A stretch of 34,333 nucleotides of DNA. Origin: Arthrobacter sp. H35-D1 (GTDB lineage: Bacteria; Actinomycetota; Actinomycetes; Actinomycetales; Micrococcaceae). Position 1 is the first letter of the stretch; each line of letters begins with the position of its first letter. Made by a program: the position numbers and the translations under genes. The notes beneath the pieces are model-generated. The model was not told the DNA's origin. It saw only the letters and a list, made by a program, of their open reading frames with translations, and did no database searches. This document shows, one piece after another, positions 4,013-33,623 of the stretch. The DNA is taken from assembly GCF_030063185.1 (NCBI RefSeq), contig NZ_JASISP010000029.1, positions 1-34,333 of the forward strand, given 5' to 3'.

Positions 4013-4758
4013 CTCATGGCAGGGTTGTCAGTGATCGAGATCTGGGGAGTTGCCACCCGGCTCACTAAGCGCCTGAACGCTCTGCGTATCTGGTCAATCC
4101 TGGATTTGAGAAACGCGAATCCAGTGATGATCCGTGATCGTTTCTCCATCGTGATGATGCGCACCGTCCTAGAGTTACAAGGCACCCCCCCTGCATCCCT
4201 ATGGAAGAAGAACGCATGGGTCGTGACCAACTCATCTTCTCTCGATCCTTTTCGACCCGGATCACCACCCAAGCCGATATGCGTCAAGTCCTGAGTCTGT
4301 ACGCCCAACAGTCCAGCGCTTGGCTAGCCAAACACAACCTCCAGACCAAGATCATGACAGCATTCGCGGCGACGTCCTATTACAACCCGGGGGATACCTC
4401 CTACCCTTCGGTGTGTTCCTTTGCTGATGCCGACCGCGGATCCAGTGCTGCTGGCACGGACCGCTTTCGCATTGGTGCCCAGAATTGTGGAAGGGGTTAA
4501 ATACGTGCACGCTGGGATCCTCGTTACTGACCTTCGCCCTATTGGGGACCAGCCGCCGTTGGAGCTTTTTGAGAACCCGCACGAGGAATACCACATCGGA
4601 CAACTCCTGGAAGACGTCACCAAAAAGTACGGACGCGGCAGTATCGGCCTCGGTGCCGGAGGCGTTAAAGGTGGCCCGGACTGGTCCATGAAACGCGAGA
4701 TGCTTTCCCCCGATACACCACGCACTGGGACGAGCTACCTATTGCCAAGGCTTCATGA
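4007..4758 (+). pseudogene. umuC: umuC remnant (error-prone DNA polymerase V subunit), three frameshifts
   Basis: Joined across three frames, the plus strand reads IWGVATRLTKRLNALRIWSI, RTVLELQGTP, then CIPMEEERMGRDQLIFSRSF, LLMPTADPVLLARTAFALVP, YVHAGILVTDLRPIGDQPPL and WSMKREMLSP, ending RYTTHWDELPIAKAS. These are the thumb, little-finger and C-terminal parts of UmuC. Frame changes are needed at the 7-C run 4185-4191, near 4411-4416, and at the 5-C run 4707-4711. The catalytic palm and fingers (roughly the N-terminal half) are absent, replaced by the helicase-associated fragment. No umuD is nearby. The stop overlaps the stop of the SRAP gene tail to tail. Confidence 0.85.
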
Positions 4759-5457
4759 GCTGATGGGTTTTAGCAGTTCCGGTCCGTCCCCTTTGAGTGG
4801 GGCAACCTGGTGAAACTCTAAGGCCTCGGCCACTGGCGTGGCAGCTGCTACAGCAGAATCAACCAATGTTTGATCCCCCTCCTGGCCGGCGTCCAACCAC
4901 TCATCCCAAAAACTCGGTGGCAACGTCACCGGCGTGCGATCGTGGAGCTGGCTCACTTCTCCGACAGCTGTCCGGGTCAAGATCGTTGCCGTCAACGTCC
5001 AATAGTTCCAGTCATCCTCGGGAAGTGATTTGTCTGGCCACCACGTGTACAAACCAGCAAACGCCAACAACTCATCGTTGGGGCTGTGGATCGCGTAGGG
5101 GGTCTTGGTCTTCCCCTCGGTGTGCCACTCATAGTAGAAGTCGGCCGGAAGAATCGCTCTCTTGCTCTTGACCGAACCTCGGAAGGTGGCTTTCTCAGCT
5201 GCCGTTTCCGAGCGGGCGTTGAAGGTAGCGAATTTCGTTTTCAACTCCTTGGAGTAGGACGGCGTCAGCGACCATCGGCCCGCCTCGAGGCGACGAATGA
5301 CCTCATCCTCGCCTTTGGCCGATTCAAGAATCACCGGCACGCGGTTTGTCGGCTTGATATTCCATGCCGGATCCGGCAATCCATCACCGACGTCCTGAAC
5401 ATCAAAGATACTCACCAAATCAGCCGTGGCCCTTGCAACTACGTAGCGTCCGCACAT
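4753..5457 (-). CDS. SRAP domain protein, HMCES/YedK type (abasic-site DNA-protein crosslinker)
   Basis: This 234-residue protein shields abasic sites in single-stranded DNA by forming a thiazolidine link through Cys2. The start at 5457 gives MCGRYVVAR with cysteine at position 2, which the chemistry needs; a longer frame starting at 5472 would bury it. Family motifs are seen in order: WNIKPTNRVPVI, RWSLTPSYSKE (for the usual RWGL-P), FNARSETAAEKATFR, RAILPADFYYEW with the active-site glutamate, YAIHSPNDELLAFAGLYTWW, and LHDRTPVTLPPSFWDEWL with the catalytic histidine. It faces the umuC remnant tail to tail with overlapping stop codons, so it once neighboured a second DNA-damage gene. Confidence 0.92.
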   Translation of the reverse strand: MCGRYVVARATADLVSIFDVQDVGDGLPDPAWNIKPTNRVPVILESAKGEDEVIRRLEAGRWSLTPSYSKELKTKFATFNARSETAAEKATFRGSVKSKRAILPADFYYEWHTEGKTKTPYAIHSPNDELLAFAGLYTWWPDKSLPEDDWNYWTLTATILTRTAVGEVSQLHDRTPVTLPPSFWDEWLDAGQEGDQTLVDSAVAAATPVAEALEFHQVAPLKGDGPELLKPISS

Positions 5458-5742
5458 GAGCCCATTCTGCACCGCCAGAGCGGTCGTTAGGAAGAACTCG
5501 CCTACGACTTACCTCACCATCTCCAACCAAGCTCCTGCCTTGACATGCTGTGGTTCCCCCGGGATGGTTCGCCCCAAAAAGGTTTGGTACCCGCAGACTC
5601 ACACCAGGCCATGGACCCTGCATCCACTACCCGGACCAGACGGTAAAACCACTCTGGCGGGGAGGGGCTGAAATGGCGTAGCGCCACCGGCCAGTCAAAA
5701 GCAACGCCCGGTCTCTGGGCACGCCCTATCAGCCAGACTCGT
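5458..5742. other. Spacer between SRAP gene and IS3-family element
   Basis: No recognisable gene is present. Short open frames exist on both strands, one on the minus strand giving GYQTFLGRTIPGEPQHVKAG, but none matches a family I know or has a ribosome binding site. The stretch should include the SRAP promoter and the flank of the insertion sequence. Confidence 0.35.
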
Positions 5743-5798: not shown

Positions 5799-6293
5799 AT
5801 GACTACATCCACATCAGCAGGAACCGGACAGCCCGGACCGGAGGAATCAACCAGCCAGGACCAGGTCTCAGCGGAGCCTGGGCCGCGTTCCAACCGGTCT
5901 GCCCGCAGGACTTTCACGGCCGAGTTCAAGCGCGCCATCGTCGAGGAATACGACGGGGCACCAAACGGGTCCAAGGGTGCGGTGCTACGCCGCGAACGGC
6001 TTTACGATTCCCATATTCAGGAATGGCGGTCCGCGTTCGAAGCGGGCGCGCTGGAGAAGCCGGTGGCACGCCGGGGCCGGCCGAAGAACACGGCCGAGCA
6101 GACTCAGATCGTCGCGCTGACCAAGGAGCTGGCCGCCGAGCGGGCTTCGCACGAGCGGACCCGTGACAAGTTGGCTTCCTCGGATGCGGCCTTGGATACC
6201 CTGGGAAAAGGAGTCGCGTTCTTGGAAGCTCTCTCGTCGAAGAACGCGTCATCGCCGGAACTGGGTACCAGTCGTGGCAAGCAGAGACCGTAG
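5799..6293 (+). CDS. IS3-family transposase OrfA (helix-turn-helix part)
   Basis: This 164-residue protein has a disordered N-terminus, then RRTFTAEFKRAIVEEYDGAP and a helix-turn-helix, followed by a heptad-rich coiled coil (QIVALTKELAAERASHERTR) typical of OrfA leucine zippers. ATG 5799 is preceded by AGGAGGG (5781-5787). In IS3 elements OrfA binds the terminal repeats and is joined to OrfB by -1 frameshifting. OrfB here lies in the -1 frame and overlaps the end of OrfA. OrfA itself is intact even though the element cannot make full-length OrfAB. Confidence 0.85.
   Translation: MTTSTSAGTGQPGPEESTSQDQVSAEPGPRSNRSARRTFTAEFKRAIVEEYDGAPNGSKGAVLRRERLYDSHIQEWRSAFEAGALEKPVARRGRPKNTAEQTQIVALTKELAAERASHERTRDKLASSDAALDTLGKGVAFLEALSSKNASSPELGTSRGKQRP
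6203..6209 (+). other. Slippery heptamer for -1 frameshifting (GGGAAAA)
   Basis: In the OrfA frame the bases read G GGA AAA, a standard X XXY YYZ slip site. Stepping back one base here enters the OrfB frame, which stays open through SLVEERVIAGTGYQSWQAET into the known OrfB region. This places the OrfAB fusion point about 30 codons before the OrfA stop. Confidence 0.6.
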
Positions 6294-6663
6294 CGGAACT
6301 CAGTCCGCTGATCGGGGTGGTGAGTGCCTGTGCGCTGGTGGGCCGTTCCCGGGCCACCCATCACCGTCAGGCCAGCCCCAAGCCGCGGATGCACGGTCCG
6401 TGGCCCAAGGCCCAGCACCCGGCGGAACTCTCGACGGCCGAACGTGCCCAGGTCTTGGAGGTGCTCAACCGGGGGGATTACGCGAACCTCTCACCGACGC
6501 AGGTCTATGTCCGTGAGCTGGACGAGGGCCGGTATTGGTGCTCTCAGCGCACCATGTATCGGGTCCTGGCGGACGCAAAGATGGGCGGGGAACGCCGGCG
6601 CCAGGCCACCCATCCGCCCCGGAAGATTCCCGAGTTGATGGCCACAAAACCATGCGAGGTATG
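6210..6663 (+). pseudogene. IS3-family transposase OrfB, 5' part (interrupted)
   Basis: The frame reads VAELSPLIGVVSACALVGRS, LSTAERAQVLEVLNRGDYAN, TQVYVRELDEGRYWCSQRTM and HPPRKIPELMATKPCEVWS. This is the HTH_21 region that precedes the integrase core in IS3 OrfB proteins. The frame leaves the transposase at 6664, where the RIT terminal repeat begins. The catalytic DDE residues are all in the other half at 13704-14322. Confidence 0.85.
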
Positions 6664-6751
6664 GTCGTGTTATGCCGAGGTCTTGGTTATGCCGACACCT
6701 CCGTCAGCGGCCCGGGTTCCTATGGTCGCCGAGGCCAAACTATCGGCATAA
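6663..6751 (+). repeat. Left terminal inverted repeat of outer RIT (ritC side)
   Basis: These 89 bases match 13596-13684 perfectly as an inverted repeat. They hold two direct copies of TTATGCCG (starting 6670 and 6687) and one inverted copy (6744-6751) at the inner edge. The ritC stop codon begins at the next base, 6752-6754 on the minus strand. Confidence 0.95.
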
Positions 6752-6971
6752 TCAGAGTGCCTCGAGAAATGTGATGACTGCGTCCGTTGGCTGATAACGA
6801 CCCTGGGCGGAGACCTCGGACGGGGCGACCTTCGCGATTGCTTCTTCTTTGAGGGTCATATCGGCATGGATGTAAATATTAGTTGTGGAAATCTGCTCGT
6901 GACCTAGCCAGAGCGCGATTACGGTGGTGTCGACCCCTGCTTGGAGCAGTCTCATCGCGGCGGTGTGGCGC
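6752..6971 (-). pseudogene. ritC: Outer RitC recombinase, 3' part (catalytic C-terminus)
   Basis: The minus strand from 6971 reads RHTAAMRLLQAGVDTTVIAL, then WLGHEQISTTNIYIHADMTL, and ends TFLEAL with TGA at 6752-6754. It carries the end of the HxxR box, the third-box histidine (LGH) and the nucleophilic tyrosine (NIY). It continues exactly where the 5' part breaks at 10606 (AHTMR followed by HTAAM). Inner RIT sequence separates the two by 3.6 kb. Its TGA directly adjoins the terminal repeat. Confidence 0.92.
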
Positions 6972-6991
6972 TTATGTGGAATTCCACATAA
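6972..6991. repeat. ritA-end palindrome of inner RIT
   Basis: TTATGTGGAATTCCACATAA is a perfect 20-bp palindrome made of two inverted terminal-box copies. It lies between host sequence and the terminal repeat and has no counterpart at the ritC end (10606 onward is host ritC). Its spacing to the first repeat box is the same as in the outer element. Confidence 0.9.
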
Positions 6992-6995
6992 TGGG

Positions 6996-7079
6996 CATTA
7001 CGTGGCCGGGCGAGTTATGTGGCCGGTTGGGGTGTTTGCGCAGGCGGGCGCACTTTTACCGTCATTTCCGGCCACATAA
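6996..7079 (+). repeat. Left terminal inverted repeat of inner RIT (ritA side)
   Basis: These 84 bases match 10522-10605 inverted with three mismatches. Boxes TTACGTGG (6998-7005) and TTATGTGG (7015-7022) are direct, and CCACATAA (7072-7079) is inverted at the inner edge. The 171 bases from here to the ritA start probably hold the promoter, but no clear hexamers can be named. Confidence 0.93.
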
Positions 7080-7250
7080 TCCCTGATATCCGGCATTCTC
7101 TGGCTGGTGCACACCGATGGCTAGGCCCGGTTCTTTGCCTCTGTCCGGCATGCTTCGGCGCCCATTTTCCCGTTCGGAACCCGTCAAAATTCCATACCCG
7201 TGGCGAAGACTTGCCTTATCTGTTCACCACTATCAGAGGGGCTGGTTCTT

Positions 7251-8516
7251 ATGGAAGCATCAAACATCAAAGAAGCGTCGGGGCGGGTGATCGTCGCGTT
7301 GAAGGCCGCGGATAGGTCACGCGCAACCATCAATCGCCATGAGGCGGTCTTCAACGCGTTTGCCAGATTCCTCGAGGCCCATGGCCGAGGACTTCCTACC
7401 GAGTCTGACTGCCTTGAATTCATTACCGAGCGGACCGGTACCGTGCTTACGGGTTTGCGAGAGCTGACCAGTTCCAGGCCTGCTCAACTTGCCCGACGGC
7501 CCCTGATACTGCTGATGGATACCCTTGATGCCGGCCTGCCCCGGGTGGGCCAGGTTACATCGCCGCGGTTCGAGCGGTGCCCTGCACGATTCCTGGGCAT
7601 CAGGGATGAATACCTTCAGGTGTGCCATCGGCGCAGAAATGCCGAGGCCAGCATTGAATCGAAGCAACGTGCCGCGGATCAGTTCCTTGCCTACCTCGAG
7701 GGGATCGGGAGGGAATCCATCGACGAGGTTCAGGGCCAAGACTTGGTCGGGTTTTGGGTTCAGCGCCAGCACGGGCACTACGCCCCGAAGACCATTGGTT
7801 CGCTGCGTTCGGTATTGGCTGACTTCCTGCGCTACTTGCACCAGACTGGGCAGATCCGGGAGGATCTGGCCGAGCGGCTCCCACCCCAGCGCTATCCACG
7901 GCGCGGGGAGACGGCCCCGTACTCGTGGACCGCTGAGGAGGTCCGCCTGGTCTTGGATCAGATCGATCGGCAAGCGGCGATCGGGAAACGTGATTACGCG
8001 ATGGTCCTGCTGACCGCCAGGCTCGGTTTGAGGGTCGGAGATCTGCGTCGTCTGGAACTTGGATGGTTCGACTGGCGGGCCAAGACCCTGGCGTTGACGC
8101 AGCACAAGACCGGCCTGCCATTGACGCTGCCGCTGCCCGGTGATGTCGGATGGGCTGTGATCGATTACATCCGTCACGGTCGGCCTGAAACGGACTGTCG
8201 GCAGGTGTTCGTGAAACATCGTTACCCGTTCACGGCTTTCGGTTCCTCGAGCTCGGCGGGCAGCCGGCTGGGCTATTACGCGAGGCGTACCGGGATAGTG
8301 TTCCCGGCCGGGCAGGCGCACGGCCTTCACTCGCTACGCGGCGCCTTGGCGGTGGCGATGCTCCAAACCGACACGCCCCCGCCAGTCGTCACGGCGGTTC
8401 TGGGCCACGCCTCTGCCACTACGACCGCCGCGCACTACTTCCGGCTCGACACTGAACACCTGCGCCGCTGTGCCCTCGATGTTGAAGATGTCCTGAATGC
8501 CGAGGAAGGTGCATGA
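7251..8516 (+). CDS. ritA: RIT tyrosine recombinase A (inner element)
   Basis: This 421-residue tyrosine recombinase has an N-terminal SAM-like core-binding region (about 100-215, including KQRAADQFLAYLEGIGRESI) and a catalytic domain. Catalytic signatures are ARLGLRVGDLRRLELGW (first arginine), HKTGLPLTLPLP (lysine strand), LHSLRG (HxxR), LGHASATTTAAHYFRLD (histidine and nucleophilic tyrosine). ATG 7251 has AGAGGGG at 7235-7241; an upstream GTG at 7200 lacks a site. The stop overlaps the next start as ATGA. RitA is the longest of the trio, as in the outer element (405 residues). Confidence 0.92.
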   Translation: MEASNIKEASGRVIVALKAADRSRATINRHEAVFNAFARFLEAHGRGLPTESDCLEFITERTGTVLTGLRELTSSRPAQLARRPLILLMDTLDAGLPRVGQVTSPRFERCPARFLGIRDEYLQVCHRRRNAEASIESKQRAADQFLAYLEGIGRESIDEVQGQDLVGFWVQRQHGHYAPKTIGSLRSVLADFLRYLHQTGQIREDLAERLPPQRYPRRGETAPYSWTAEEVRLVLDQIDRQAAIGKRDYAMVLLTARLGLRVGDLRRLELGWFDWRAKTLALTQHKTGLPLTLPLPGDVGWAVIDYIRHGRPETDCRQVFVKHRYPFTAFGSSSSAGSRLGYYARRTGIVFPAGQAHGLHSLRGALAVAMLQTDTPPPVVTAVLGHASATTTAAHYFRLDTEHLRRCALDVEDVLNAEEGA

Positions 8517-9487
8517 CTGTGAATACGATGACGTTGCCCGATCTGATCGATGTCCTGGTCGCGGCCCGCCGTGCCGGCGGCTTCCGCTATAACGGCCAAG
8601 AACGGGTGTTGGCCCAGTTCGCAGAACACTCCCGCCAAGAAGGATACGCGCATGGCTCGATTATCCAAGAAGCTGTTCAGGGATTCCTCTACGACCGCCA
8701 CCTCAAATCCTCCACCATCCGCAAAGAGGAGATCGTCTTGCGTGAATTGGCCGAACACGCCCGCCAGTTCGGCTGGCAAGCGTGGGCGCCGCTGACCCTG
8801 ACACATGTAAAGACCCTCCACCGGCCACCGCCCTACGTGTTCAGCGACGAGGAGATCCGTCGCCTCTTCCACGCCATCGATGCCCAGAAGCTGTCCGAGA
8901 TTTCGAACAGGGCCCTGGTCGACCCGGTGTTGTTCCGAGTGTTCTATGGCACCGGGATGCGCCTGTCAGAAGCGCTCAATCTGGAACTGCGCGACTTCGA
9001 CCGGGCCCGCGCCACCCTTGCGGTGCGTGACGGGAAAAACCACGAAAACCGCCTCGTGCCTCTCACCTCGCGCCTCACATCCACTCTGGAAAGTTACGTC
9101 GCGACTGCACACCCCGATCCCGACCCTGGCCACAAGCTTTTCTACACCGGCAACCGGGCCAAATCGGCTGACAAGTCCACGATCTACAATAGGTTCCGCC
9201 GCTACCTCGCCGACGCCGACATTCCCCACTTTCCGGGCGGCCCGCACATCCATTCGCTGCGTCACGGCTTTGCCGTGGCAAATCTGCGTCGCTGGGCTGC
9301 CGGCGGTGGGGACTTGATGGTGATGCTGCCCTATCTCTCCGCCTACATGGGCCACGCCGACATGCGCGGCACCCAGTACTACCTCCAGCTGACTGCGGAC
9401 GCCTACCCCGAGGTCGCCGCGATGGCCCAAGCCAGGTTCGGCTACGTCATCCCGGACGTGGACATAGTGGAAGGCAGCAAGCGATGA
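8513..9487 (+). CDS. ritB: RIT tyrosine recombinase B (inner element)
   Basis: This 324-residue tyrosine recombinase is translated from an ATGA overlap with ritA, which implies translational coupling. The core-binding region is RRAGGFRYNGQERVLAQFAE and on. Catalytic boxes are VFYGTGMRLSEALNLELRDF, GKNHENRLVPL, HSLRHGFAV and YMGHADMRGTQYYLQ with the tyrosine. The long linker between HxxR and the third box (WAAGGGDLMVMLPYLSAY) is also present in the outer RitB (WYRDGADVAAMMPALSTY) and seems typical of the B position. All four catalytic signatures are intact. Confidence 0.92.
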   Translation: MTVNTMTLPDLIDVLVAARRAGGFRYNGQERVLAQFAEHSRQEGYAHGSIIQEAVQGFLYDRHLKSSTIRKEEIVLRELAEHARQFGWQAWAPLTLTHVKTLHRPPPYVFSDEEIRRLFHAIDAQKLSEISNRALVDPVLFRVFYGTGMRLSEALNLELRDFDRARATLAVRDGKNHENRLVPLTSRLTSTLESYVATAHPDPDPGHKLFYTGNRAKSADKSTIYNRFRRYLADADIPHFPGGPHIHSLRHGFAVANLRRWAAGGGDLMVMLPYLSAYMGHADMRGTQYYLQLTADAYPEVAAMAQARFGYVIPDVDIVEGSKR

Positions 9488-10512
9488 GCGGCGAGGACCT
9501 GGCTGGCAAGTGGCTTGCGAAGTTCCTCACCGGCCATCTGGCCGGGGAGCGAGACCTCTCGACCCAGACCATCGCATCCTACCGAGACGCGATAAAGATA
9601 CTGCTCACTTGGTACCGCGATGTGCAGGGAACCCGGCCCGAAAAACTCCGCCTGACGGACCTTGACCGGGACCGGGTGCTCTCCTTCCTGGACTGGCTCG
9701 AAGCCGAGCGTGGCAACTCGGCGGCAACCCGCAACCAACGCCTTGCCGTCATTAAATCCTTCGCCCGATACACCGCGGTCGCCCGGCCGGATTTCCTTGA
9801 CCAAGCCACCCAAATCCTTGCCATCAAGCAAAAGAGGACCTCTGCCACCAACATGGGCCACCTCACCGGCGACGAGATGAAAGCCCTCTTGAACGAGCCA
9901 GACCCGGCCACCTCGCGCGGGCTGCGTGACACAGTCCTGCTCTCCACTCTCTACGACACGGCCGCCCGCGTTCAAGAGATCTGTGATCTGAACACCGCCG
10001 ACATCCGCACGGCCCGACCCATGGTGGTGACGCTACGCGGCAAGGGCTCGAAAACCCGGTGCGTCCCGCTGATGGAACCCACCGCTCGGCTCGTGACGGA
10101 CTACCTCAACCGTCGCATACCCCACCCCGGAGTCGGCGCGGACGCAGACCCGCTGTTCAGCGGGCCGAACCACACCCGGCTGACCCGGTGGGGTATCACC
10201 AAAGTCCTTGCCAGACACGTCCGATCCCTGCGGGGCCGTGATCCCGGATTCGCGCCGGGTCTCAAAGTCACCCCGCATGTGATCAGAAGGAGCAGGGCGA
10301 TGCACCTGCTCCAGGCAGGGGTCAACCTGATCTACATCCGCGACCTGCTCGGCCACGCCGACGTCTCCACCACGGAAATCTACGCCCGCGCCGACACGGA
10401 GGCCAAACGCATCGCCATTGAAAGTGCCTACCAGTCGCTAACTCCCGAGCCCCTGCCCGACTGGACAGCAGACCAGGACCTCCTCGACTGGCTCGATCAC
10501 GCCGACAACTAG
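9484..10512 (+). CDS. ritC: RIT tyrosine recombinase C (inner element)
   Basis: This 342-residue tyrosine recombinase starts at an ATGA overlap with ritB. It has a XerC/D-like core-binding domain (FLTGHLAGERDLSTQTIASY, ILLTWYRDVQG, FLDWLEAERGNSAATRNQRL) and a catalytic domain with LYDTAARVQEICDLNTADI, LRGKGSKTRCVPLM, TPHVIRRSRAMHLLQAG and LLGHADVSTTEIYARAD. The stop lies only nine bases from the right terminal repeat. It is complete, in contrast to the outer ritC. In the HxxR box it reads HVIRRSRAMHL where XerC/D-type enzymes have HxLRHxFA, a C-position peculiarity. Confidence 0.92.
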   Translation: MSGEDLAGKWLAKFLTGHLAGERDLSTQTIASYRDAIKILLTWYRDVQGTRPEKLRLTDLDRDRVLSFLDWLEAERGNSAATRNQRLAVIKSFARYTAVARPDFLDQATQILAIKQKRTSATNMGHLTGDEMKALLNEPDPATSRGLRDTVLLSTLYDTAARVQEICDLNTADIRTARPMVVTLRGKGSKTRCVPLMEPTARLVTDYLNRRIPHPGVGADADPLFSGPNHTRLTRWGITKVLARHVRSLRGRDPGFAPGLKVTPHVIRRSRAMHLLQAGVNLIYIRDLLGHADVSTTEIYARADTEAKRIAIESAYQSLTPEPLPDWTADQDLLDWLDHADN

Positions 10513-10521
10513 AACCCAGCG

Positions 10522-10605
10522 TTATGTGGCCGGAAATGACGGTAAAAGTGCGCCCACCTGCGCAAACACCCCAACCGGCCACATAACTCGGCCGTCCACG
10601 TAATG
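10522..10605 (+). repeat. Right terminal inverted repeat of inner RIT (ritC side)
   Basis: It holds the mirrored boxes TTATGTGG (10522-10529), CCACATAA (10579-10586) and CCACGTAA (10596-10603). It matches 6996-7079 with three mismatches. Read on the minus strand it also supplies the premature end of the outer ritC frame, whose stop falls at 10522. Confidence 0.93.
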
Positions 10606-11382
10606 TCGCATAGTGTGGGCGGTAATCCGTTGGCCGTTCAAGGAGGGGCATGAGGGCGCAGCGGTAGCTACCGCGACGCGGATTCGCTGTTCGATTGCGT
10701 CTCGGCTGAGTCTGCGTCCGGTCGTAGTCGTGAATAGAGGGGCATCGATGCAGCCTCCGTTCTCGTCGATCCAGTTGCCCATGATTGCCAACACGGCAGG
10801 TAGCAAGGGGGTCCGGCGTTCCTTGCGGCCTTTGCCCAGGCAATGGACGTGCGGGCCGGTTCCGGTGTGGATGTCCACGATGTTCAGGCCAATCAGCTCA
10901 CTGACGCGTAGTCCCGTCTGAATCGCCAAGCTGAATAGTGCATGATCACGCCGGCCGGTTCTGGTGCCCTGGTTGCAGGCAGCCAGCAATGCATCAGCCT
11001 CGCCTTGGTCGAGCCAAGAGACGATGTTGCGTTGAATTCTCGCGGTCGGAATCGCCAAGACCCGCTGGATGACGGCGGCATGTTCGGGATGACGCAGTGC
11101 GGCGTAGGTGAACAGCGAATGGATCGCAGCCAGACGGGCGTTGCGGGTGCGGACGCTATTTCCCCGGACCGTTTCCAGATAGGTCAGGAACCCGGTCACG
11201 GTGCCGGAGTCAAGGTCGCTGATCTCCAACTTCGAGGGGGCTTTGCCTGTCTGGTCCTGCACATGTGCAAGCAGCAGCTTGAAGGTATCCCTGTAGGAGG
11301 CGATGGTGTTCGGGCTGGCTTGACGCTGGGTCATCAGCCGATCGGTGAAGAAGGCCTGCAACAGCGGGGCAAGAGAAGTCAT
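10606..11382 (-). pseudogene. ritC: Outer RitC recombinase, 5' part (interrupted)
   Basis: From ATG 11382 (ATGA overlap with ritB) the frame reads LLQAFFTDRLMTQRQASPNT, LDSGTVTGFLTYLETVRGNS, AIQTGLRVSELIGLNIVDIH and LGKGRKERRTPLLPAVLAIM, up to ITAHTMR. It then enters the inner terminal repeat and stops after about 29 foreign codons. The core-binding domain, first arginine and lysine strand are present. The second-box arginine is the last native residue, while the third-box histidine and the tyrosine lie at 6752-6971. The truncated protein should be catalytically dead. Confidence 0.92.
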
Positions 11383-12323
11383 GGCCCCACCTGCCCATGA
11401 GTGTCTGCATTGGCGAGCCGGGCCGAGGCATGGGCCAGCAATTCTGGGACGGCACTGAGGTACCAATAGGTGTTGGCCGGGTCGCTGTGCCCCAAATACG
11501 TTGATAACGCGGGCATCATGGCTGCGACATCGGCTCCATCGCGATACCAGCCCAGCAGGGTGTTCACGGCGAACGCATGTCTGAGATCATGCATTCTGGG
11601 ATGCAGCCGGTGGGTCTGTATCCTGGCAGCGCTGGCTGCCTGGCGGAACGCCTTAAGGACGTTATCGTAGGGAAGCTGGTCACCTTCACGATTGATGAAA
11701 AACGGTGCACTGCCAGCGTGCGACTGTTGCTCATACCCATCGCGCCACGAAGCATAGCGCCCCAAGGCAGCGATGCTGCTCTCATGCAGTGGCACCAGCC
11801 GCTGCTGGCGGGATTTACCGCTGCTGACCACTAATATTCCGGTATCAAGATCAACATCATCACGGGCCAGGCCCAGCGCTTCACCGACCCTGAGCCCGGA
11901 GACGGCGAGCAGCCCAAACAACGTGGGGTAGGTGTGTGCCCGAATTCCGTGGCTGAGATGTCCTGCCGACTCAATCAGCGCGGATGTCTCGGCATTGGTA
12001 TAGATATACGGTGCCGAACGGTGAACCGGGTGAGCGAAGACCCCTTGGGGTGGGATCTCATGGGCAGGGTCCACCGCGTGCATATAGGTGGCGAACCCCC
12101 GCACGGCCATAAGCCGCCTGGATGCACGGGCGATGCGATGACCCGTTCCGCTGAAAGAGGCTTCAGCCCAAGAGACGGCGTTGGCGGTTGTGATAGTCAG
12201 GCTGCCAGCAGAAGCCAGATGGGTCGTATATTGACCCAACAGATGCTCGTCCCAGGCAAGGAGGGCACCTAACTGGCGACGTAGCCGCAAGTAGTCGGCC
12301 ACGTGCTCTTCCCACCCGTTCAT
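11379..12323 (-). CDS. ritB: RIT tyrosine recombinase B (outer element)
   Basis: This 314-residue tyrosine recombinase has its start at 12323 set by the ATGA overlap with ritA; an upstream in-frame ATG at 12347 would lie inside ritA. The core-binding part is YLRLRRQLGALLAWDEHLLG. Catalytic boxes are LLAVSGLRVGEALGLARDDV, GKSRQQRLVPLHES, RMHDLRHAFAVNTLLGWYRD and YLGHSDPANTYWYLSA. It is intact and could still act with the outer RitA, though its ritC partner is broken. Confidence 0.92.
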   Translation of the reverse strand: MNGWEEHVADYLRLRRQLGALLAWDEHLLGQYTTHLASAGSLTITTANAVSWAEASFSGTGHRIARASRRLMAVRGFATYMHAVDPAHEIPPQGVFAHPVHRSAPYIYTNAETSALIESAGHLSHGIRAHTYPTLFGLLAVSGLRVGEALGLARDDVDLDTGILVVSSGKSRQQRLVPLHESSIAALGRYASWRDGYEQQSHAGSAPFFINREGDQLPYDNVLKAFRQAASAARIQTHRLHPRMHDLRHAFAVNTLLGWYRDGADVAAMMPALSTYLGHSDPANTYWYLSAVPELLAHASARLANADTHGQVGP

Positions 12324-13537
12324 GACAGGCTCCCATCGGCCGGCCACGGTTGGGCCAAGGTGCGCAGCCTGGTCACGTCGACGCGAGCATAATTTGCGGT
12401 GGTGACCGGGTCATCGTGACGCAATACCTGCCCGATCGCGGCCAATGACACCTCGGCACCAACCATGGCCTCACCGAGGGAATGGCGTAGTCGGTGCGCA
12501 CCGAAAGGCTGCATACCAGCACGCTTGCAGCCGCGAACGACGATTGCCCATACTGCCGGTGAGCCGAGCCGGCGCCAGGGTGCCTTCACGGTGCTGAAAG
12601 CCTCTCGCAGTTCCGGTATTGCCGGACGGGCATGGAGTAGATAATCCACCACAGCCGCCCCGACTTCGTCCGGCAGGGGTAGCCGTTCGTCTTTGGATCC
12701 CTTGCCGCGGACAAGGAATTCACCGTGATGCCAGTCGATATCCTCCAGACGTAGCCCTGCGACTTCACCAGCGCGCAGTCCTAATCGTGCGAGCAGCATG
12801 ATCACCGCATAATCACGTCTTCCTACCGCGGAATTTCGGTCACAGGCCTCCAACAGGGCATGAATCTGGCTCGGGCTCACACCAATGGGCAGCAGTGAGG
12901 GCTGGGGCAATCGCACCACTAGGGTCGCCCCGGCCAGGTCACGATCCAGCTCTCCGACCAGGAAGCAGAAACGCAAAAACGAACGCAACACGTAGCCGAA
13001 CTTTTTTACGGAAACGGGTTTCCTGCTCTCTCCCTCATCCAGCAATGCCCGGATGACATCAGCTGCCTTCAGGTCGGAGATACCTCCCGGAGGGGTGTAG
13101 CCGTTGAGGAAACGGCGCGCCCGGGACACCTGCGCCTGAACGGAAATCTCCTTCAGTCGCCGTTCACTGCGAAGGTAATCCTCGAAACGGACCAGCACCA
13201 GAGGATCCGAGATCTGCCGAGGCAAAGCCACCTCCACGGCGATCACCGCCGATGTGACCAGCCAGCTCAGCAGCGGCTTCAGCGCACGGTAGCTGAAGTG
13301 TGAGGCATATTTTGTCTGCCGCTCAAGGAGGAAAAGCTCAATGAGTTCCACCGTAAGGTCTGCCACGACCAAGTCCTTAGCTTGGAGCCAGCTGCTCAAA
13401 TGTGCCATAAGACGGAGCTGGGCTCCAGCCGAGATAGGAGTGAATCCCAGCCGGATCAGTTCGGCTTCGAATCCCTCGACGTACGATTCCAACGGGCCAC
13501 CGACATGCACCCGACTCAACTTGCCAACAATCGCCAT
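12320..13537 (-). CDS. ritA: RIT tyrosine recombinase A (outer element)
   Basis: This 405-residue tyrosine recombinase starts at ATG 13537, with AAAGGAAA about eight bases upstream; longer in-frame starts reach into the terminal repeat. The N-terminus reads MAIVGKLSRVHVGGPLESYV. Catalytic boxes are LLARLGLRAGEVAGLRLEDI, VRGKGSKDERLPLPDEV, GAHRLRHSLGEAM and VLRHDDPVTTANYARVD. The third-box LGH of most relatives reads LRH here and keeps the histidine. The start lies 58 bases inside the right terminal repeat, so the promoter may partly lie in that repeat. Confidence 0.92.
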   Translation of the reverse strand: MAIVGKLSRVHVGGPLESYVEGFEAELIRLGFTPISAGAQLRLMAHLSSWLQAKDLVVADLTVELIELFLLERQTKYASHFSYRALKPLLSWLVTSAVIAVEVALPRQISDPLVLVRFEDYLRSERRLKEISVQAQVSRARRFLNGYTPPGGISDLKAADVIRALLDEGESRKPVSVKKFGYVLRSFLRFCFLVGELDRDLAGATLVVRLPQPSLLPIGVSPSQIHALLEACDRNSAVGRRDYAVIMLLARLGLRAGEVAGLRLEDIDWHHGEFLVRGKGSKDERLPLPDEVGAAVVDYLLHARPAIPELREAFSTVKAPWRRLGSPAVWAIVVRGCKRAGMQPFGAHRLRHSLGEAMVGAEVSLAAIGQVLRHDDPVTTANYARVDVTRLRTLAQPWPADGSLS

Positions 13538-13595
13538 GACTTCGTTTCCTTTGTCTCCGCAAATAATGGGAAACAAGTCGAACATGCTTCGATGG

Positions 13596-13684
13596 TTATG
13601 CCGATAGTTTGGCCTCGGCGACCATAGGAACCCGGGCCGCTGACGGAGGTGTCGGCATAACCAAGACCTCGGCATAACACGACC
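13596..13684 (-). repeat. Right terminal inverted repeat of outer RIT (ritA side)
   Basis: It is a perfect inverted copy of 6663-6751. Boxes are TTATGCCG (13596-13603), CGGCATAA (13653-13660) and CGGCATAA (13670-13677). Confidence 0.95.
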
Positions 13685-13709
13685 TATGCCGATATCGGCA
13701 TAGGTCGTG
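13678..13709. repeat. 32-bp palindrome at the ritA end of outer RIT
   Basis: The perfect palindrome runs CACGACC, then TATGCCGATATCGGCATA, then GGTCGTG. Its core joins two inverted terminal-box halves. Its right arm contains the host spacer GTCGTG and its left arm the inverse of that spacer, lying between box 1 and the palindrome core. The ritC end has no such palindrome. Confidence 0.95.
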
Positions 13710-14322
13710 GGATATTACGAAGATGCGTGGTCCGGCCAAGGGTATCTGGTACCACGCCTACGTGGTGCTCGATATCTTCTCCCGCTACGTGGTCGGTTGG
13801 CGGGTTGAACTCATCGAGGACGGCCAGCTTGCCGCCGACCTCGTGCAGGACATCGTTGCGGACACCGGCGGCCACCCGCCCGGGTACCTGCACGCCGATG
13901 GCGGGGCCGCGATGACGTCCAAGGCGTTGGCGTCGATGCTGGTGGACATGGACATCACCCGATCCCATTCCAGACCCCACACAAGCAACGACAACCCCTT
14001 CAGCGAAGCCCAGTTCAAGACCATGAAATACACCTCTGACTACCCCGATCGCTTCGCTTCAGTGAATGAGGCCCGGACCTGGATGGAAGGATTCACCGCT
14101 TACTACAACCATGAGCACCGACACTCAGGAATCGGTTATCACACCCCGGCCAGCGTGCATTACGGCACCGCCGGCGCCGTGCGTGACCAACGCCAAGCCA
14201 CCCTGAACCGGGCCTACGGCGCACATCCAGAACGATTTGCCCGCCGCCCTGCCGCACCCCCACTGCCGGCCAAGGCAGCAATCAACGACCCGGCGAAAAG
14301 AGCCAAGGCCCCGATTCATTAA
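13704..14322 (+). pseudogene. IS3-family transposase OrfB, 3' part with DDE core
   Basis: The frame resumes at TCG TGG GAT and reads SWDITKMRGPAKGIWYHAYV, VLDIFSRYVVGWRVELIEDG, YLHADGGAAMTSKALASMLV, TSNDNPFSEAQFKTMKY and FTAYYNHEHRHSGIGYHTPA. These give the catalytic triad: D of WDIT, D of HADGG, and E of SEAQFKTMK. All core residues are preserved, so only the nested insertion inactivates the gene. It joins the part ending at 6663 without loss when the RIT elements are removed. Confidence 0.9.
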
Positions 14323-32786: not shown

Positions 32787-33623
32787 TTAGGCAGCAGCGC
32801 GTTGTTGGTGGTTTTGGGTAGTGAAGTTGGCCATGGCTGTTGCCGGCGGTAGTCCGTCGTTATGGCTGTGTGGTCTCCACCGGTTGTAGAAGGCCTCGAT
32901 ATAGTGCATGGTGGCCTGTCTGGCGGCCTGGCGGGTATCAAAGCTGTAGTGGTGGTAGAACTCGTTCTTCAGGGACGAGAACGCTGATTCAGCCACGGCA
33001 TTGTCCCAACACACACCGGCTAATCCCATCGACTGGCGGATATTATTTCCGGTACACCAAGCCCCCAGTTCGCGGGAGGTGTATTGAGCCCCATGGTCTG
33101 AATGAAAAATTCCGTTTGCTTGCAGATGGCCCTTGTCTCTGGCCATTTCCAGCGCACTGACACACAGGGATGCGCGCATATGGTCGGCCATGGCCCAGCC
33201 GACAATCATGCGGGTGCACAGGTCGATGACGGTGGCCAGATACAGCCATCCCTCTCCCGTGCGCAAATACGTGATGTCTCCGACCAGGCGGGTGCCCGGG
33301 GTTGCTGCGGTGAAGTCACGGCCGATGAGATCCTTGAAAACCTTGTCCGGATCGCCAGGGATGGTGGTTCGTTTGAAGGCGCGCATCCGCCTGGCGACCC
33401 ACCCGTTTTCAGCCATGATCGTGGCCACGGTTCCCACGGAAACAGCCACCCCGTCGGCGGCTAATTTGGTGTGAACCATGCGGTGGCCAAAGATCTGATC
33501 GGAGGAATCGAACATCGACTTCACTTGATCGGTCAGCTCCCTATGGCGGATGGTTGTGGGCGTGTCGGTGGCATCACGCCAGCGGTAGTACGAGGACCTG
33601 GGCACACCCAGTTGCCGGCACAT
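32787..33623 (-). CDS. IS3-family transposase OrfB (DDE integrase core)
   Basis: The 278-residue part from ATG 33623 shows HTH_21 (RHRELTDQVKSMFDSSDQIF, GHRMVHTKLAADGVAVSVGT) and the DDE core. It has RLVGDITYLRTGEGWLYLAT (first D), IFHSDHGAQYTS (second D) and CWDNAVAESAFSSLKNEFYH (E). The frame is open further upstream to the orfA overlap, so the working product is an OrfAB fusion made by -1 frameshifting at 33713-33719. All catalytic residues are present. Confidence 0.92.
   Translation of the reverse strand: MCRQLGVPRSSYYRWRDATDTPTTIRHRELTDQVKSMFDSSDQIFGHRMVHTKLAADGVAVSVGTVATIMAENGWVARRMRAFKRTTIPGDPDKVFKDLIGRDFTAATPGTRLVGDITYLRTGEGWLYLATVIDLCTRMIVGWAMADHMRASLCVSALEMARDKGHLQANGIFHSDHGAQYTSRELGAWCTGNNIRQSMGLAGVCWDNAVAESAFSSLKNEFYHHYSFDTRQAARQATMHYIEAFYNRWRPHSHNDGLPPATAMANFTTQNHQQRAAA

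Follow-up and report, generated by a model that had tools for sequence, protein, structure and literature searches.

Recombinase-in-trio (RIT) elements, in the portions of Van Houdt et al. on which we draw (PMC3414803), are about 3.4 to 3.6 kb long and carry three overlapping tyrosine recombinase genes, ritA-ritB-ritC, between terminal inverted repeats. Section 11 of that paper already notes a palindrome near RIT ends, with no convincing role, and reports no convincing further recombinase binding sites; the register, side switching, target polarity and codon-pair core described below do not appear in the portion considered. A 2023 comparison, in the part available to us, lists the target specificity, empty site and movement of RITs as not tested (PMC10214605). 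Within the open-licence literature searched, which was available in part and did not cover Ricker et al. 2013 (the main RIT paper), Nielsen 2017 or Van Houdt 2009, we found no account of side switching, target polarity, the codon-pair core or the target classes. Here, we analyzed a 34,333-nucleotide stretch of Arthrobacter sp. H35-D1 (contig NZ_JASISP010000029.1; "the window"), in which two elements that are RITs lie nested, the inner one within ritC of the outer one. We argue that a palindrome found at one end of each is probably the joint of a circular form of the element, flanked by two inverted core sites.

Results

A palindrome in a fixed register at one element end

The outer element occupies positions 6664-13709 of the minus strand, cores included. 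The inner element lies on the plus strand, with a palindrome starting at 6972 and its far box 1 at 10596-10603 (6998-10603 from box 1 to box 1). In both elements, the ritA end has landmarks at offsets -26, 0, +17 and +74 and the ritC end at 0, +17 and +74; the first set had been given in a first-pass annotation of the window and is correct for both. The landmark at -26 is a 20-bp palindrome, separated from box 1 by 6 bp on the outer side; only one end of each element has it, and neither ritC end does. The inner ritA end consists, from the host inward, of a core spacer, TGGCGC (6966-6971), the palindrome TTATGTGGAATTCCACATAA (6972-6991), an internal core spacer, TGGGCA (6992-6997), box 1, TTACGTGG (6998-7007, plus strand), box 2, TTATGTGG (7015-7024, plus strand), whose octamer is identical to that of the palindrome arm, and an inverted box (7072-7079, minus strand). 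The terminal repeat at the inner ritC end (10522-10603, minus strand) comprises an inverted box (10522-10529), box 2 (10579-10586) and box 1, and is followed at the box-1-side junction by the core spacer TGTCGC (10604-10609).

For the outer element, the core spacer GTCGTG at the ritC-end junction (6664-6669) adjoins a terminal repeat (6670-6754, plus strand) with box 1 at 6670, box 2 at 6687 and an inverted box at 6744-6751. The ritA-end repeat (13593-13677, minus strand) has its inverted box at 13596-13603, box 2 at 13653-13660 and box 1 at 13670-13677, and beyond it lie the internal core spacer (13678-13683), the palindrome CTATGCCGATATCGGCATAG (13684-13703) and the host-side core spacer, again GTCGTG (13704-13709). 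Together with its flanking 6-bp cores, the outer palindrome forms a perfect 32-bp palindrome (13678-13709). It is at the ritA end, where the first-pass annotation had placed it, with arms that start with C, not T. The octamers TTATGTGG, TTACGTGG and TTATGCCG are confined to element ends on either strand of the window, and inverted repeats of 92 bp (99%) and 84 bp (96%) fit RITs of about 3.5 kb with terminal inverted repeats.

We compared 148 loci, window included and with L001 to L007 (own-genome hits) and L155 excluded. Because NCBIfam yields only XerC/XerD-type matches below cutoff, we called trios by BLAST searches with the window proteins, followed by searches with the trios so found. A ritA-ritB-ritC trio was called in 127/148 loci, with 136 trio calls in all; one spurious reverse-strand trio was removed from the window, and the outer element, with its split ritC, was added manually. 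Some calls are repeated or overlap (L123 was called twice, and L046 and L093 are one element). Two duplicates were dropped, 60 calls had no detected palindrome, and 74 had, in a single register, a palindrome (10 + 10 bp), a 6-bp spacer and box 1. The named records among these positive elements belong to Actinomycetota, Bacillota and Pseudomonadota. Recurrence of the register in 74/136 calls agrees with the earlier proposal of recombinase-type binding sites that keep their geometry while the box sequence differs.

The detection rule that we adopted additionally requires that 3 of the first 5 palindrome bases be the same as in the box at +17. Since this rule favors both, neither the likeness of palindrome and box 2 nor the count at +17 is used as proof. 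A first rule (ritA end, 29; ritC end, 34; both, 9; none, 52; n = 124) and a looser second rule were dropped for spurious registers; before the trio search was widened, the final rule gave 32, 33, 4 and 52, respectively. On a control list of 123 trios, there were 70 detections, and 0 in each of three runs with the flanks shuffled in 2-base blocks. Eleven displaced registers gave 0, 1, 2, 2, 3, 6, 6, 7, 7, 9 and 11 detections, compared with 68 at the true register once the same extra condition was applied. Among 61 long-flank elements, a palindrome with at least 8/10 pairs was present at the register on the palindrome side in 56 (by selection) and on the other side in none, and other offsets had a mean of 0.05 and 0.06 elements per offset with such a palindrome. 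An inverted box (at least 7/8 matches) was found in 60/74 elements, lying at +72 to +76 in 50 and exactly at +74 in 37, with ties resolved towards 74. The palindrome-negative calls are partly truncated contigs or repeated calls, and a palindrome is visible by eye in L047, L058, L084 to L087, L140 and L141. Viral contigs scanned with the outer RitA gave two stretches that matched a pattern, neither of them a relative.

Side switching and target polarity

Of the 74 elements, 32 carry the palindrome at the ritA end and 38 at the ritC end, and 4 have one at each end. Copies that are nearly identical and occupy different sites of one genome, an indirect sign of mobility, differ in this respect. The Kibdelosporangium genome that includes L045 has five copies of one element, L090 to L094, with the palindrome at the ritC, ritA, ritC, ritC and ritA end, respectively; L090, L091 and L094 are 99.97% identical over 3.4 kb, and for L092 and L093 the identity is 97.7-97.9% over 6.6 kb including flanks. 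For another element of the same genome, L084 to L087, the palindrome is at the ritA end, the ritC end, both ends and the ritA end, with 99.8-99.9% identity among L084, L085 and L087. That genome also holds L088 (ritA end) and L089 (ritC end), which are 100% identical over 3374 bp. L117 (ritC end) and L123 (ritA end), from one genome of the class of L017, are 99.5% identical. Hence, contrary to what the first-pass annotation had suggested from the window, the palindrome does not mark the ritA side; nor is it always one-sided, since palindromes at both ends, named beforehand as one refuting observation, occur in a few elements. Those at both ends of L086, L095, L103, L114 and L025 look as they would after recombination between copies, or the loci may be short-contig assembly chimeras.

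We compared flanks in register between pairs of elements with a one-end palindrome, at a cutoff of at least 60% identity somewhere. In all 49 similar-flank pairs, which are not independent, the match joined either the palindrome sides of the two elements or their far sides (24 same-end and 25 opposite-end pairs, with 26 loci in the latter), and the top cross identity was 0.44. CARGG codons, corresponding to the reverse transcriptase GTPQGG motif, were on the palindrome side in 20 elements (ritA end, 7; ritC end, 11; both, 2), whereas CARGGNGG was found at the far end in 0/74. In L025 and L103, which make up the "both" class, codons of this kind are present at each end. Because flank pairs and CARGG codons align by palindrome side, we concluded that the palindrome is placed according to target polarity.

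The 6-bp cores

Three cores were readable in 65 elements with a one-end palindrome. The host core on the palindrome side agreed with the internal core at a mean of 5.00 of 6 positions (identical in 29/65) and with the far-end core at a mean of 5.11 (identical in 33/65); all three were identical in 19, and cores of unrelated elements agreed at a mean of 1.91/6. Positions 3 and 6 held 47 of the 65 mismatches between palindrome-side and internal cores. Where a fitting long open frame was present (35 elements; the longest frame from two frame classes that place wobble bases at 3 and 6), these two positions accounted for 29/34 mismatches. The codon-pair versions GAGGCC and GAAGCT occur in varying combinations at the three core places of L090 to L094. 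The internal core has no contact with the current target, and still most of its differences from that target are at wobble positions; it looks like the core of an earlier target gene of the same kind. The data are consistent with an older target core retained within the element, in the manner of a coupling sequence.

A proposed circular form with a two-core joint

The sequences themselves show the geometry, side switching between near-identical copies, target polarity and spacer homology; a circle, strand exchange within the 6 bp and any pairing of Rit proteins with boxes are what we infer. The circle would run from the ritC-end box 1 through a 6-bp core, the 20-bp palindrome and a second 6-bp core to the ritA-end box 1. 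Its joint would thus hold two equivalent inverted core sites, each made of box 1, 6 bp and a palindrome arm; box 1 and the arm would be the half-sites of the core, and box 2 and the inverted box accessory sites. In integration, one of the two core sites would exchange strands with a 6-bp core in the target. If the circle opens at the ritC-side site, the palindrome would end up at the ritA end; if it opens at the ritA-side site, at the ritC end. Because the target core is asymmetric, the palindrome would come to lie on a constant side of the target with the genes pointing either way, and the unused core would be retained inside the element as a copy of an earlier target core. The joint predicted for the outer element is symmetric at 99/100 positions (20, 20, 20, 20 and 19 per 20 outward from the dyad), and that predicted for the inner element at 92/100 (17, 18, 20, 19 and 18).

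A fixed asymmetric mark of the ritA end, such as a directionality or recombinase-loading site, would suit the two window elements, both of which carry the palindrome there, but the 38/74 palindromes at ritC only, and copies of the same element within one genome with the palindrome at either end, leave this explanation with almost no credit. Hardly more credible is a palindrome made afresh at each insertion by copying target sequence, for example through the opening of hairpin ends. The perfect outer palindrome does take in the target core on both sides; however, copies of one element at different places share the same 20-bp palindrome, and the internal core is not identical to the present target core in 36/65 elements. 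The intermediate might also be single-stranded, with a palindromic joint that folds up to give one double-stranded core site, much as attC does in integron recombination. This is a sub-case of the circle, to which we assign a distinctly minor likelihood: a near-perfect inverted-repeat joint would fold so (a symmetry argument, not a test), and use of either strand would account equally well for side switching and target polarity, but no result here requires single-strandedness.

A further, improbable competitor has the palindrome fixed beside the target and the element inverting in place between the inverted core sites, which are indeed inverted repeats at both element ends. Some palindromes have arms that differ by one or two bases, and here the predictions part. 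Inversion in place predicts a constant host-facing arm, whereas a palindrome that is a piece of the circle would keep its ritC-proximal and ritA-proximal arms identical between copies with the palindrome at opposite ends. The latter was seen in the near-identical pairs L085/L087, L088/L089 and L117/L123, where the host-facing arm switches, and at both ends of L095 and L114. These three pairs have also moved, since their copies sit at different places. Among the 74 elements, 31 opposite-end pairs have an imperfect palindrome and RitA proteins that are at least 60% identical. Three fit the circle (L088/L089 and L117/L123, with 100% RitA identity, and L148/L151, with 63%), 2 fit a palindrome that stays host-side, and 26 are ties.

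Several observations weigh against the circle joint. The ties make up most of the arm comparison, and the two host-side pairs, L070/L080 (73% RitA identity) and L137/L148 (70%), are diverged pairs that fit inversion in place. The ritA-end palindrome of L086 has reversed arms, in the order expected after inversion, and L084 has two like arms. Palindromes at both ends (the 4 called and L086) call for a further event or for copies to have recombined. In 32/65 elements the flanking cores are not the same, and either could be the original; among the 60/136 calls with no detected palindrome some with full flanks may lack one. No circle, joint or excision product was observed. Constancy of both palindrome arms is supported but is not uniform; recent moves fit the circle, and in the longer term either the palindrome or the element appears to have undergone inversion as well. 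Head-to-head RITs sharing one palindrome in L034 (3584-3603) were withdrawn as evidence for an integrated joint; this contig is a perfect mirror image (3593/3593) and may be an assembly artefact.

Boxes and Rit proteins

The inner palindrome arm was nearer to box 2 in 45/74 elements, nearer to box 1 in 11 and equally near in 18, a distribution that the detection rule favors. Counted by RitA cluster (n = 49), the figures were 31, 9 and 9, respectively. This likeness hints at two types of half-site. The first-pass annotation had also suggested that box specificity coevolved with the proteins. In a Mantel-type test on 60 dereplicated elements, the rank correlations between box distance and Rit protein distance were only 0.02-0.20, and for the boxes the partial correlations with P ≤ 0.05 (12 tests, uncorrected) were weak and limited to box 1 with RitB (0.13, P ≤ 0.007) and box 2 with RitB (0.12, P ≤ 0.037). 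Coevolution of boxes and proteins is only weakly visible.

Genes and targets of the window elements

Gene order is ritA-ritB-ritC in both elements. The inner tyrosine recombinase genes, all on the plus strand, are ritA (7200-8516; start codon uncertain), ritB (8513-9487) and ritC (9484-10512); ritB and ritC each overlap the preceding gene by 4 bp. On the minus strand, the outer element has a ritA open reading frame (12320-13675), whose true start is probably further inside, ritB (11379-12347), and ritC, which the inner element severs at the HTMRH codons into a 5′ part (10606-11382) and a 3′ part (6752-6971). All six Rit proteins match XerC/XerD-type models below the curated cutoffs (NCBIfam). 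HxxR and Y motifs were found by pattern in inner RitA, RitB and RitC and in outer RitA and RitB, and outer RitC is interrupted within HTMRH.

The outer element is inserted in an IS3-type transposase gene, within the codons of a WSWDIT motif. By reading frame and motif, the part of the gene before the motif lies at 6215-6669 (plus strand), and the remainder at 13710-14322 (plus strand) matches rve. Relatives, L157 and L160 among them, have the motif uninterrupted. When the window's genome was searched for another copy of the split insertion sequence, only the window's own turned up; relatives gave uninterrupted homologues. An SRAP (SOS-associated peptidase) gene at 4753-5472 adjoins the interrupted IS3-type element, outside both RITs. 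A second IS3-type transposase gene (rve; 32787-33623) has no RIT interruption and no W..D.T match in the pattern checked. The genome of the window has a third RIT, L070 (G000:C86:121800-128005), with the palindrome at the ritA end and inserted at codons resembling those of an IstB Walker B motif.

Targets elsewhere in the survey were typed by reading the motif of the empty site and by Pfam matches of the flank pieces taken separately. Reverse transcriptases (RVT_1) are entered at GTPQ|GG, and IstB ATPases at the Walker A and B motifs (Pfam for L061, L079, L088, L102, L116, L118 and L123). The HxxRH motif of tyrosine recombinases is the target of the inner window element, L012 and L152 (Pfam) and of L144 (a family match in the far flank). 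In L008, as judged by motif, a RIT of the inner element's family lies at the HTLRH codons of ritC of another RIT (L008:4483), a second and independent case. Transposases of the rve type were entered by the outer window element, L068 and L153, and further targets are IS66 (L076), IS110 (L137 and L148), IS200 Y1 (L127), DDE_5 (L136) and a resolvase-type serine recombinase (L090). When 106 fragments were scanned together, they gave 17 IstB, 7 RVT_1 and 6 Phage_integrase matches, which are not element counts because both flanks and trial frames were included. Not every target is a mobile gene: other flanks matched PemK/MazF-like (L125), PRiA4_ORF3 (L154) and zincin (L151) families, and L139 to L142 lie by helicase-type genes (annotation). 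These last four are RITs on different plasmids of Dinoroseobacter and Pukyongiella, adjoining a DEAD/DEAH helicase gene; L140 and L141 show a palindrome of the TTATCC type at the ritA end, and L139 and L142 show none there. Scanned singly, the flank pieces of L060, L067, L077, L080, L081, L083, L108, L109, L119, L129 and L146 gave no family. The targets identified are mostly conserved motifs of other mobile-element enzymes, which suggests insertion into short conserved codon pairs, often within genes of other mobile elements.

Discussion

The pattern described here predicts the joint exactly and also supplies an exact crossover register and a target rule. Many RIT families may interrupt mobile-element enzymes at conserved codons; the window itself offers a case, in which the insertion of a second RIT has split the catalytic HxxRH codons of the first. 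If this is true, RITs would be site-specific recombinase systems with very short, codon-level targets. We lean, with some reserve, toward a broader view in which RITs are largely hyperparasites of mobile elements, a previously undescribed palindromic circle joint with two inverted 6-bp cores erases their own orientation so that only that of the target remains, and each family is specific for two codons within a conserved motif, typically one of a mobile-element enzyme, and carries a wobble-coded memory of its previous victim.

In the passages of PMC5385486 and PMC10214605 on which we draw, GInt islands resemble RITs in having three tyrosine recombinase or related genes, and recombination of their att sites has been shown. 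They differ in having four essential genes, cargo of 2.5-70 kb and direct imperfect repeats of 10-17 nt; six examples lie at the end of the ssb gene, the product of which is unchanged. Tn554-related elements, as treated in the part of PMC10214605 available to us, also use tyrosine recombinases and carry 6 bp from the old flank to the new site. They have TnpC in place of a third recombinase, and that part describes no two-core joint palindrome for them. The same source, within the same limits, describes strand-biased circularizing integrative elements (SEs), which resemble RITs, as modelled here, in their tyrosine recombinases, in the 6-bp spacer of the circle joint and in the footprint that a donor core leaves (PMC10214605). 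Unlike RITs, SEs have the gene set intA, tfp, intB and srap, and their joint is a single C-6 bp-C′ site with no palindrome between core sites. The intA-tfp-intB-srap set is absent from the window elements, which hold three tyrosine recombinase genes only. The SE-type 6-bp spacer between inverted motifs does recur in the predicted RIT joint, but twice, around a dyad.

We know of no symmetric double-core joint in Tn916-type, homing or intein systems. Two features of those systems are nevertheless shared with the scheme proposed here. In the coupling sequences of Tn916-type elements, target bases travel in the circle, as we propose for RITs. Homing elements and inteins lie in conserved motifs, so that, as in RITs, slowly changing codons are chosen as targets, although by different enzymes.

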